This document shows, one piece after another, positions 17,690 through 20,092 of a stretch of DNA of 64,000 nucleotides; position 1 is the stretch's first letter, and each line of letters begins with the position of its first letter. The stretch comes from Terriglobus sp. TAA 43 (lineage in GTDB: Bacteria; Acidobacteriota; Terriglobia; Terriglobales; Acidobacteriaceae). The stretch covers positions 1 through 64,000 of the forward strand of contig NZ_JUGR01000001.1 of assembly GCF_000800015.1 (NCBI RefSeq), read 5' to 3'. The translations under genes and the position numbers were made by a program. Below the pieces are notes generated by a model. The model had not been told where the DNA came from. It made no database searches and was given only the letters and a program-made list of their open reading frames with translations.

Positions 17690-18439
17690 TTGGCTCCCCG
17701 CGTTCTGGTCACTCGCGCCCCGCATCAGGCCTCGGCATTGGGCGATGCGTTGGCCGCTCATGGCCTGCGCGTGGCATCCGTACCCACCATCGCGCTTGCA
17801 CCTCCCAGTGATGAATACGCCACGCTCGACCGCGTTCTTATTCGCTTGGATGAGTTCGATTGGATACTCTTCACCTCTGCGAATGCGGTCGCTGTCTTTG
17901 CTGAGCGGCTTGAGGACGAAGCTGTGCCGTTAACCTGTGGCATTGCTAGCATTGGCGCCGCCACCAGCAAAGCGCTGCGCGATGCAGGCTTTCCCGTACG
18001 CCTGCAGGCGCAGACGGCGATTGCGGAGTCCCTCGCGAAGTCGCTGTTGCCACACGCACGTGGTGCCTCCATGCTGTTGGTGCGCGCCGAGCAGGGAAGA
18101 GACGTCCTGATCGAAATACTCGAAGAGGCTGGCGCAGAAGTGACTCTGGCCCCCGCCTATCGCACGGTGATTCCTACGGAATCGGTGGAGCGGTTGAAGC
18201 GCGAACTGCCCACGGTAGACGCCATCACCTTCACCAGTTCGTCGTCAGTGCAGAATCTGTTCGCTCTGTTGCACGCCGCCGGTTTGTCTCTTCCAAAAGA
18301 GATGGTGCTGGCGTCCATCGGTCCCATCACCACCGCATCGCTCAAGGAGCAGGGACTGAGGCCTACGGTAGAGGCACGAGAGGCTACTGTCATATCGCTG
18401 GCTTCTGCCGTTGCGACGGCGCTTCGGCATCGCGGCTAA
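17690..18439 (+). CDS. hemD: Uroporphyrinogen-III synthase
   Basis: A 249-residue cyclase that closes hydroxymethylbilane to uroporphyrinogen III. The start is a TTG (17690) three bases after the hemC stop, with GGAGG inside the end of hemC; no ATG is available. Family features are APRVLVTRAPHQASALGDAL at the N-terminus, FTSANAVAVFAERL, and the second-domain strand VDAITFTSSSSVQNLF, followed by SIGPITTASLKEQGLRPTVEA. HemD is poorly conserved, but these elements and the position after hemC make the call firm. It closes the hemC-hemD unit; 85 bp downstream begins the cysteine-rich reading frame. Confidence 0.92.
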   Translation: MAPRVLVTRAPHQASALGDALAAHGLRVASVPTIALAPPSDEYATLDRVLIRLDEFDWILFTSANAVAVFAERLEDEAVPLTCGIASIGAATSKALRDAGFPVRLQAQTAIAESLAKSLLPHARGASMLLVRAEQGRDVLIEILEEAGAEVTLAPAYRTVIPTESVERLKRELPTVDAITFTSSSSVQNLFALLHAAGLSLPKEMVLASIGPITTASLKEQGLRPTVEAREATVISLASAVATALRHRG

Positions 18440-18456
18440 GAATCTTTGGCGATGGG

Positions 18457-18485
18457 TGTAAGGTTTTCCCGCCCGCTGCGTGTTT
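18457..18485 (+). promoter_or_regulatory. Candidate ECF-type promoter
   Basis: TGTAAGGTTT (18457-18466) followed after 12 bp by CGTGTTT (18479-18485) resembles the -35/-10 layout of ECF sigma promoters and would fit autoregulation by the sigma factor downstream. Inferred from pattern only. Confidence 0.35.
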
Positions 18486-18524
18486 CCTTGTGAGCCCACA
18501 TCACGGCTCTGAAGGAGAGACCAA

Positions 18525-18596
18525 ATGAAGTGCAATGAATGTCAATGCGGTGAAGTCTGTGTCTGCGTCATTTGTGGATGCAAGCGGAATGGTTAG
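18525..18596 (+). CDS. 23-aa cysteine-rich peptide (leader ORF of the ECF sigma gene)
   Basis: A 24-codon frame starting ATG at 18525 with an excellent GAAGGAGA ribosome-binding site at ideal spacing. The peptide (MKCNECQCGEVCVCVICGCK, then RNG) has seven cysteines at positions 3, 6, 8, 12, 14, 17 and 19, arranged as CxxC and CxC pairs typical of metal-thiolate ligands. Its last codons overlap the ATG of the sigma gene (AATGGTTAG), so translation of the two is physically coupled. Composition is unlike a random frame: 30% Cys. It could bind metal itself, act as a metal- or Cys-tRNA-sensitive leader controlling the sigma gene, or be a partner of the sigma's own Cys-rich tail. No known family is recognised. 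Confidence 0.7.
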   Translation: MKCNECQCGEVCVCVICGCKRNG

Positions 18597-19182
18597 TTCC
18601 TCAGGCGGCTACGGAACATCTCATTCTGTAGCCGCTGCCATGCCCGTAACGACACAATTCGACACGCTGCTGGAACACCGTGCGCAGTTTCTTACCTTTC
18701 TGGAGCGTCGTCTGCACGACCGCAACAAGGCAGAAGACATTCTGCAGGCGGCCTATATTCGTGCGCTGGAACACGAAGGCAACGTGCAGGAGCACGAGTC
18801 CGTTGTGGGCTGGTTTTATCGTGTTCTGCGCAACGCGGTGATTGATTCCTATCGCCGAAACAGCGTGGAGAACGAAGGTCTCGCGGTGTTAGCGAGAGAG
18901 ATGGAAGATGCCGCCACGCCGCCTGTCGACCTTCGCGATGAGGTATGTCTCTGCTTGAAATCCGCGGTGGATTCGCTGTCGCCTGACTACGCGGATCTGT
19001 TGCGCGAGGTGGATCTGGCAGACGAGCCGCTTGCCGCCTATGCGCAGAAGAGAGATCTGACCAGCAACAACGCCGCGGTGCGAGCGCATCGTGCGCGTGC
19101 GGCGTTGCGCAAGGCGCTGATTCGTTCCTGTGGAGCCTGCGCCGAACATCACTGCGAAAACTGCACCTGCAAACGCTGCTAA
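18589..19182 (+). CDS. CorE-like ECF sigma factor with Cys-rich C-terminal domain
   Basis: A 197-residue sigma-70 factor of the extracytoplasmic-function type. Region 2 lies at ~25-85 (FDTLLEHRAQFLTFLERRL, EDILQAAYIRALEHE, VVGWFYRVLRNAVIDSYRR), and region 4 at ~120-175 (LSPDYADLLREVDLADEPLAAYA, NNAAVRAHRARAALRKAL). The tail SCGACAEHHCENCTCKRC adds six cysteines in 18 residues. This layout matches CorE-type (ECF44) factors, in which a Cys-rich domain binds copper or cadmium/zinc and controls activity without an anti-sigma factor. The start at 18589 overlaps the stop of the 23-aa Cys-rich ORF; another ATG at 18640 is possible. No anti-sigma gene is adjacent, as expected. The metal sensed cannot be told from sequence. 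Confidence 0.88.
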   Translation: MVSSSGGYGTSHSVAAAMPVTTQFDTLLEHRAQFLTFLERRLHDRNKAEDILQAAYIRALEHEGNVQEHESVVGWFYRVLRNAVIDSYRRNSVENEGLAVLAREMEDAATPPVDLRDEVCLCLKSAVDSLSPDYADLLREVDLADEPLAAYAQKRDLTSNNAAVRAHRARAALRKALIRSCGACAEHHCENCTCKRC

Positions 19183-19189
19183 TGAAGAG

Positions 19190-19211
19190 AGGCATGGCTT
19201 GCGCCATGCCT
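19190..19211. terminator. Terminator between the ECF sigma gene and mqnD
   Basis: Perfect stem AGGCATGGC / GCCATGCCT with loop TTGC lies 8 bp after the sigma stop, followed by a T-rich stretch. Confidence 0.7.
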
Positions 19212-19234
19212 ATTCTCGTTCTTCGCAAGTCGGA

Positions 19235-20092
19235 TTAGTCGATGAAATCGACCTTGGCCTTGTGCGGAATCACGCCGCGCTCATAGCCCATGTCCAACAG
19301 CTTCTTGATGGCTTCGCGGCCATCGTCGCCGTAGTTCAGGGTGCGCTCGTTCACATACATGCCCACGAACTTGTTGGCCAGGTTCGGATCCAGATCACGC
19401 GCAAACTGCATCGCGTATTCCAGCGCCTGCGGGCGATGATCCAGCGCATGCTGAATGGAGTCGCGCAGAGCCTGTGTGGCAATGTGCATGGATTCCGGTC
19501 CCAGCGAACGGCGGATGGCATTGCCACCCAGCGGCAGGGGCAAACCGTCGGTCTGTTCGCGCCACCACTGGCCCATGTCCAGAATCTTGTGCAGGCCGTT
19601 GTCGCCGTAGGTGAGCTGGCCTTCGTGAATGATCAGGCCGGCTTCGAATTCGCCAGAAACCACGCGCGGAATGATCTGGTCGAACGGAACGACCTCGTAC
19701 GCCACTTCCGGATGGAAGAGGCGCAGCGTCAGAAACGCTGTGGTCAGTTCGCCCGGAACAGCGATCTTCAGCTTCTTCACTTCGTCCGTGGTGTACTTGC
19801 GCGGAGCCACGATCATGGGGCCGTAGCCCTCGCCCACAGAGCCGCCGCAAGCCATCAGGGCGTACTCGTCCTGCAGGTAGGGATAGGCGTGGAAACTGAT
19901 GGCCGTCACGTCGTAGTACGGATCATGAATGGCGCGCTGGTTCAGCGTTTCAATGTCCGTAAGAACGTGGGTGAACTTGTAGCCGGGGACGCGGACCTTG
20001 TTCGTTGCAAGGCCGTAAAACATGAATGCGTCGTCGGAGTCGGGGCTGTGGGCCACCTTGATCTCTTGTACGCCTGTCGTGGTGGTGCTCAT
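19235..20092 (-). CDS. mqnD: 1,4-dihydroxy-6-naphthoate synthase
   Basis: A 285-residue enzyme of the futalosine route to menaquinone, converting cyclic de-hypoxanthine futalosine to 1,4-dihydroxy-6-naphthoate. The family opening KVAHSPDSDDAFMFYGLA, the central SFHAYPYLQDEYALMACGGSVGEGYGPM (shown here as SFHAYPYL and GGSVGEGYGP) and LIIHEGQLTYGDNGL are all present. The fold is that of periplasmic binding proteins, but there is no signal peptide, so it is cytoplasmic. An AAGGAC site lies ahead of the ATG. It lies 44 bp downstream of bioY on the same strand and probably shares its transcript. Other mqn genes are not in the window. Confidence 0.92.
   Translation of the reverse strand: MSTTTTGVQEIKVAHSPDSDDAFMFYGLATNKVRVPGYKFTHVLTDIETLNQRAIHDPYYDVTAISFHAYPYLQDEYALMACGGSVGEGYGPMIVAPRKYTTDEVKKLKIAVPGELTTAFLTLRLFHPEVAYEVVPFDQIIPRVVSGEFEAGLIIHEGQLTYGDNGLHKILDMGQWWREQTDGLPLPLGGNAIRRSLGPESMHIATQALRDSIQHALDHRPQALEYAMQFARDLDPNLANKFVGMYVNERTLNYGDDGREAIKKLLDMGYERGVIPHKAKVDFID

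Follow-up and report, generated by a model that had tools for sequence, protein, structure and literature searches.

An open reading frame for a 23-residue peptide with seven cysteines heads a two-gene unit with a CorE-like (ECF44) sigma factor in the window, i.e. the whole 64,000-nucleotide stretch of Terriglobus sp. TAA 43 that was analysed. We hold the small ORF to be very probably a genuine gene, one that encodes a micro-metallothionein and is controlled by the CorE-like sigma factor, and not mainly a leader. We consider it likely that this gene heads a self-amplifying copper-response operon of two genes under the control of the sigma factor. The ECF44 class of CorE and CorE2 is what we take to be ECF238 in the new scheme. 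The DNA itself plainly shows the ORF, how it is conserved and linked to CorE-like sigma factors, and a common promoter motif with copper genes behind it. Composition and regulon point to a metal-binding peptide, whose gene would depend on the sigma factor and which would be specific for copper.

The small ORF and the sigma factor in the window

The small ORF, our candidate micro-metallothionein gene, lies at 18525-18596 on the plus strand and encodes 23 amino acids, seven of them cysteines (MKCNECQCGEVCVCVICGCKRNG). Its ribosome-binding site, AAGGAGAG, is read directly from the sequence at 18512-18519 on the same strand. A sequence-only reading of this DNA had described a 24-codon ORF with seven cysteines in 23 residues and a ribosome site, followed by a sigma factor with a Cys-rich tail of its own and preceded by a candidate ECF promoter. 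All of these are borne out: the sigma factor ends in SCGACAEHHCENCTCKRC, and the promoter, TGTAAG-N16-CGTG, is found at 18457-18482. The small ORF and then the sigma gene form a plus-strand unit between hemD, which ends at 18439, and a menaquinone-biosynthesis gene (PF02621) on the minus strand at 19235-20092. According to Pfam these two neighbours, HemD and the PF02621 protein, are what adjoins the sigma gene, and no anti-sigma gene is found there. Rfam gave zero matches across 18200-19300, and a scan of 18300-19300 for sigma-70 promoters found none.

The window peptide has the traits of the metallothionein class: it is small, Cys-rich and carries CxC and CxxC motifs. Searches with E up to 1 matched it to no Pfam or NCBIfam model, the SmtA/BmtA model PF02069 included, which also has no match in the three genomes searched (G000, that of the window, G003 and G008). 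Taken together with ten other peptides, there was no accepted Pfam or NCBIfam match in any of the eleven; one weak metallothionein hint among the peptides tested (PF01439, E 0.041) was under the cut-off. In the nearer kin a window-like core is shared, KCxxCxCGxxCxCxxCxC, with six cysteines invariant in 15 alignment rows. The sequence-only reading had staked its claim on conservation in close relatives. The small ORF is kept there, with 7/7 cysteines retained in L003 and codon changes that are synonymous in four cases and non-synonymous in another four.

Peptide size varies from 22 to 53 amino acids overall. The forms encoded upstream of sigma on the same strand mostly have 22-41 residues, and the divergent forms mostly 39-53 residues with 8-12 cysteines. 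In Nitrospira and its kin (L072, L094, L099, L102, L105, L109) the divergent form is a protein of 53 residues and 12 cysteines, highly alike in all six, and Candidatus Nitrospira defluvii is among its carriers.

The sigma factor gene, at 18640-19182 on the plus strand when read from its favoured start, encodes a CorE-like (ECF44) protein with a CxC linker and a C-terminal Cys-rich domain, as judged from family models, an alignment of homologues (A1), motif counts and start codons. In Pfam, region 2 (PF04542) scores 42.5 bits against a cut-off of 24, and region 4 (PF08281) scores 19.1 bits, under its cut-off of 25.7. The NCBIfam model for sigma70-ECF (TIGR02937) is passed with 54.0 bits (cut-off 42.9). 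The protein is an ECF-type sigma factor with regions 2 and 4. Membership in SigZ (TIGR02959), the top-scoring NCBIfam model, was rejected, as its 94.3 bits stay under the cut-off of 168.65.

CorE-like features, according to the available text of PMC8999054, are a CXC linker and a Cys-rich domain. The linker cysteines C103 and C105 are invariant across the 13 rows of alignment A1, and a CxC is present within residues 60-130 in 87/87 loci of the survey described below, a set that includes the best 80 of 157 named loci. The tail CGxCxxHxCxxCxC is likewise invariant in the 13 rows. Numbered from the start at 18640, the tail cysteines of the window sigma are C164, C167, C172, C175 and C177; their spacing is identical to that of CorE cysteines 181, 184, 189, 192 and 194, the equivalent of Cys189 included. 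In the accessible parts of PMC3107203, cysteines 181, 184, 192 and 194 of CorE are described as invariant and Cys189 as the main copper-activation residue. In the survey (including the best 80 of 157), 86 of the 87 loci have the CorE spacing, and the exception is L084. The CorE-like identity first proposed from the sequence is upheld by the linker and by this spacing; it is supported for the window sigma, and switching by metal is predicted. The type of sigma factor is not new, because PMC3107203, in the text available, already lists CorE-like sigma factors, four from Acidobacteria and one from Nitrospira.

Linkage of the small ORF to CorE-like sigma factors

Sigma orthologues were collected from 61 genomes at E below 1e-45, which gave 13, one per genome. 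Further named loci were added, the best 80 of 157 by similarity to sigma factors near that of the window, for a total of 93. After removal of six duplicates (L090, L032, L035, L036, L038, L078) there were 87 distinct loci. We scanned them for ORFs that open with ATG, span 15-75 codons, have a ribosome site and encode at least five cysteines, with a cysteine content of at least 15%. Of the 87 CorE-like loci, 47 have such an ORF no more than 600 nt from the sigma gene, a count that is no frequency for CorE-like factors at large because the loci were chosen by similarity (best 80 of 157). Short Cys-rich ORFs near CorE-like genes had been suggested as the thing to look for, and the survey finds them.

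The same scan gave two matches in 350 kb of farther flanks, so the rate per kb near sigma is 81 times that in the flanks. At other ECF loci no small Cys-rich ORF was found (0/17, 57 kb), nor did one appear in any of 1,700 shuffled versions of the 600-nt upstream regions. A control of 57 loci collected by motif matches contained six Cys-rich ORFs, of which five belong to kin of the window and are the small ORF itself; the one at L130 is chance-like.

Two loci, L071 and L100, were assigned by hand, which brings the loci with a small ORF to 49. Among the 87 loci (including the best 80 of 157), 28 have the ORF ahead of sigma in the same orientation, which is also the architecture of the window; it is divergent in 18 and convergent downstream in three, and there is none in 38. 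On a quick sigma tree of this set, again with the best 80 of 157, the four states require 15 changes; 34 of its 84 inner branches are weak, and the starred branches alone force at most one change per group. The phyla with the small ORF are Acidobacteriota, Nitrospirota, Myxococcota and Gemmatimonadota, the last with one locus. Among plasmid relatives, five of 26 matching records were examined (four alphaproteobacterial, one Nitrospirota), and the small ORF is in none of them; copper genes are annotated on three of the five and absent from the annotation of two.

In G007 (L011/L182) the small ORF is about 1.4 kb upstream of sigma and has kept its own promoter motif, the two being separated by an apparent glycosyltransferase gene recognised by eye. 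This locus (L011) was counted as having none, and its ORF is one of the two far-flank matches. A starred clade of eight acidobacterial sigmas without the small ORF (L058, L075, L076, L082, L086, L091, L101, L106) has the tail HKCLDC or HQCLDC. Seven of the eight, L086 being the exception, have the promoter motif in front of a YHS or ATPase ORF that directly follows downstream. G006 has two sigmas, L008 with the small ORF and L058 of this clade's type.

A profile of 15 peptides was searched against the 61 genomes. It matched at E<0.01 in 11 genomes, all of them among the 13 that carry the sigma factor, and in none of the 48 without a CorE-like sigma. Since several of the 11 peptides sit in the profile, the absences are the informative part of this search. 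Weak matches (E up to 1) occur in 12 further genomes without the sigma factor. The two sigma-bearing genomes without a profile match are G034, which has the divergent form, and G033, which has none.

This phyletic pairing across 61 genomes might also reflect contact between the two proteins. The peptide could donate metal to the Cys-rich tail of sigma, or strip metal from it, and so reset the switch besides buffering. The CxxCxC motif common to the window peptide and sigma is in line with this, as is the transient activity of CorE, which Cu(II) activates and Cu(I) inactivates according to the available text of PMC3107203 and PMC8999054. However, linkage through the promoter accounts for the pairing without contact, and 38/87 loci (including the best 80 of 157) are without a nearby peptide gene by our scan. 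We regard such a partnership as unlikely. The peptide may also act as a chaperone for the sigma tail, as the sequence-only reading had suggested. Equally unlikely, in our view, is the idea that the peptide is a copper sink and at once a detached metal-thiolate module exchanging copper with the sigma tail, in which case the first target would set the duration of activation.

The promoter motif and the metal

The ECF-type promoter at 18457-18482 (plus strand) is presumably a target of the CorE-like sigma factor, and its motif is conserved upstream of the small ORFs. The motif was written after inspection of 13 initial loci before it was used on the full set. In the form TGTAA[T/G]-N15-17-CGT[C/T/G] it is present within 110 nt upstream of the small ORF in 46 of 47 loci, whatever the orientation, and L084 is the sole locus without it (set including the best 80 of 157). 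The shuffled control gives 0.0007 per 110 nt. For 41 of the 46 the motif starts at -63 to -78 from the small-ORF ATG (same set, with the best 80 of 157).

That the small ORF is a chance ORF without a product could be argued from its mere 23 codons and from the missing family model match. Conservation, linkage, ribosome site, promoter and codon pattern speak against this, and we give it practically no chance.

The motif also precedes copper genes. Among the 38 loci without a small ORF (in the set that includes the best 80 of 157), 15 have it before a P-type ATPase, YHS or HMA-signature ORF. All six ATPases of L058, L063, L075, L088, L089 and L101 pass the copper model TIGR01511 with 547-606 bits (cut-off 397); their scores on the cadmium model TIGR01512 are lower but still above its cut-off (NCBIfam). 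Pfam places the proteins of L051, L074 and L083 among the heavy-metal P-type ATPases. In the genome of the window the motif heads a same-strand row of genes (L186:1754-7363; G000:C1, about 1061.8-1067.4 kb) that encodes, in this order, a multicopper oxidase (PF07732), an outer-membrane efflux protein (PF02321) and a copper ATPase (TIGR01511), the last being the only ATPase of this genome above the copper-model cut-off. G003 and G008 share both the motif and the start of the oxidase.

A strict form, GTGTAAKN16CGTSTTT, gave nine matches in 21 genomes and four in the reversed control. Five of the nine are before the small ORF, three before the oxidase, and one is within a 336-codon frame on the opposite strand. 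This form was shaped on the window's kin and misses the peptide-bearing G001, G006 and G007, where the final bases of the site are different. The loose motif failed as a screen for the regulon across whole genomes, as the reversed control gave more matches: 175 against 104 in G000 and 43 against 27 in four genomes, i.e. no enrichment in either.

At four Bryobacterales loci (L041, L044, L048, L061) the motif stands before the gene of a protein whose N-terminal part is rich in histidine, about 550 nt past the start of the sigma match. The protein has 444-456 residues in three of the four, and that of L041 has no Pfam or NCBIfam match. A cupredoxin-domain protein (PF13473, L044:188-556) is behind the same motif at L044, 2.9 kb from sigma.

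Since copper-export genes share the promoter of the small ORF, we see in the window peptide most likely a miniature metallothionein that has been overlooked and would mop up copper. Its description as a metal-thiolate element gains support, and the peptide is conserved. Of the roles that had been offered for it a metal buffer fits best.

According to the available portions of PMC3107203 and PMC8999054, CorE and CorE2 of Myxococcus xanthus are alike in being ECF sigma factors with a CxC linker, a C-terminal Cys-rich domain and no anti-sigma nearby, and in being linked to multicopper oxidase, outer-membrane efflux and P-type ATPase genes. For CorE, putative promoters are described before copB and before the outer-membrane efflux gene linked to cuoB (PMC3107203, available text), and the putative targets have the same three functions as the row in the window's genome. 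In contrast, the word metallothionein is absent from the main text of both papers, and their available portions hold no mention of a small Cys-rich target gene of CorE or CorE2.

The metal could be cadmium or zinc instead of copper. CorE2 has a Cys-rich domain too and, according to the accessible text of PMC8999054, responds to Cd and Zn; the six ATPases pass the cadmium-family model too. Yet they score higher on the copper model, the sigma tail retains the equivalent of Cys189, the main copper-activation residue in the text available from PMC3107203, and a multicopper oxidase is behind the same promoter in the window's genome. We therefore see a small chance for cadmium or zinc and prefer copper.

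Hairpin, sigma start and proposed circuit

A hairpin with a 13-bp stem and a 7-nt loop is found at 18604-18636 on the plus strand, and the fold of the 75 nt past the small-ORF stop has z = -3.9. Among the three closest genomes the hairpin stretch has zero substitutions, one genome carrying a 3-nt deletion, while the third codon positions of sigma differ by 31% between the window and L003. The fold past the small ORF has a median z of -2.9 in same-strand loci (28 rows, 27 loci) and of -3.1 in divergent and convergent loci (20 rows), both in the set with the best 80 of 157. Five rows have weak folds, z >= -1.0 (L084, 0.2; L033 and L043, -0.6; L081, -0.9; L007, -1.0). Because a strong fold is also present in divergent and convergent loci, the hairpin seems to belong to the small gene, and in the window it is likely a 3' stability or attenuation element of this gene. 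Some hairpins end in a terminator-like T run (e.g. L013, L055). The window hairpin does not end in such a run, and none of the four terminator-like sites found in a scan of 18300-19300 corresponds to it.

A sigma frame opened at the in-frame ATG 18589 overlaps the small-ORF stop codon (18594-18596). The sequence-only reading had noted this overlap, and it stands; as the start of sigma, the next in-frame ATG, 18640, is favoured by the homologue alignment and the hairpin. It gives MPVTTQFDTLL, which is aligned with the homologues in A1. We surveyed the position of in-frame sigma ATGs relative to the hairpin in 27 of the same-strand loci (including the best 80 of 157). The ATG is solely after the hairpin in 19, solely before it in four (L034, L084, L085, L097) and on both sides in three (the window and its two closest kin, L002 and L003); one locus has no sigma ATG. 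At L097 the hairpin was wrongly picked, as judged by eye. In L034, L084 and L085 the sigma start is 3-7 nt past the small-ORF stop, which weakens a firm reassignment of the start to 18640 and makes a leader role, discussed next, slightly less improbable. Sigma may also start at 18589 in the window, because in L034, its nearest named relative on the tree (among the best 80 of 157), sigma starts right past the small-ORF stop.

The small ORF might act in cis as a metal-sensing or coupling leader (uORF), with translation of its Cys codons or metal capture by the nascent peptide controlling sigma synthesis, either by way of the ATG at or near the small-ORF stop or by way of the hairpin. In 28/49 loci (set including the best 80 of 157) the ORF precedes sigma in the same orientation, and the hairpin sits between the two. 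In the window, L002, L003, L034, L084 and L085 a sigma ATG overlaps or closely follows the small-ORF stop, and 22 of the 27 same-strand loci with a start found (same set, best 80 of 157) have no Shine-Dalgarno sequence for sigma. There is also a precedent in the copper-responsive uORF CruR; in the text available from PMC9426467, CruR of the CruR/CutF (DUF2946) system is a short ORF that heads an operon and senses copper through cysteines. Unlike CruR/CutF, the window peptide has no Pfam match and, by inspection of its sequence, no RAPP motif, and its gene is often not upstream of sigma.

Across the loci the leader fares worse. In 21/49 (18 divergent, three convergent; set including the best 80 of 157) the ORF is not upstream on the same strand, yet 20 of these 21 carry the promoter motif, the hand-assigned L100 being outside the motif count. 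Hairpins follow the small gene there too, the Shine-Dalgarno sequence is equally missing for the divergent sigmas (17/18, same set), and the 19 of 27 same-strand loci (same set, best 80 of 157) with their sigma ATG solely after the hairpin also count against coupling. A cis-acting leader fails for the divergent and convergent cases; a sigma-controlled gene explains them. A sigma-specific leader or attenuator was therefore rejected as the general role, and the earlier suggestion that the ORF sets sigma synthesis is not sustained in that general form, the ORF being about 1.4 kb away in G007 besides. For the small ORF of the window, too, we hold a leader to be quite improbable; coupling to sigma within the window's own lineage is possible.

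In the copper-response operon that we prefer, the CorE-like sigma factor would sense intracellular metal, which we take to be copper, through its own Cys-rich tail and CxC linker. The metal-activated sigma would then direct RNA polymerase to TGTAA[T/G]-N16-CGT promoters. From the promoter at 18457-18482 an mRNA would be made whose first, well-translated product is the 23-residue micro-metallothionein, predicted to bind Cu(I) through seven thiolates. The hairpin, which may act by protection, attenuation or partial termination, would probably keep the peptide abundant and sigma scarce, and read-through past it would give positive feedback on sigma. Elsewhere in the genome, a second copy of the promoter would drive the row of genes for multicopper oxidase, outer-membrane efflux protein and copper ATPase.

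Small Cys-rich proteins that bind metal are known from other bacteria, BmtA being one. SmtA/BmtA (PF02069) are described in these terms in the available text of PMC7558416; for the present peptides metal binding is predicted, and the window peptide differs in having no PF02069 match. By description, MymT of Mycobacterium tuberculosis is similar, a very small Cys-rich protein from an unannotated ORF in a copper-response regulon (PMC7558416, PMC10141476, available portions). MymT has 4.9 kDa and is under RicR, a CsoR homolog, whereas here the regulator would be a sigma factor and the peptides have 22-53 residues. The pairing with sigma had been thought perhaps undescribed, and this agrees with our full-text search, which covers few subscription papers: among the matches listed, in the text available, no paper describes a CorE-like sigma that is paired with a small gene for a Cys-rich protein or a metallothionein.

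Bacterial metallothioneins are called rare in the review PMC7558416, as far as its available text goes, and part of this rarity may come from genes too short for calling. Our results point to a family of very small metallothionein-like proteins, 22-53 amino acids long, across four phyla, and the promoter motif offers a way to seek more such genes. If the proposal is true, CorE-like sigma factors would gain a copper-buffering target besides efflux and oxidation. It also makes testable how a sigma factor without an anti-sigma turns off once the metal is bound.
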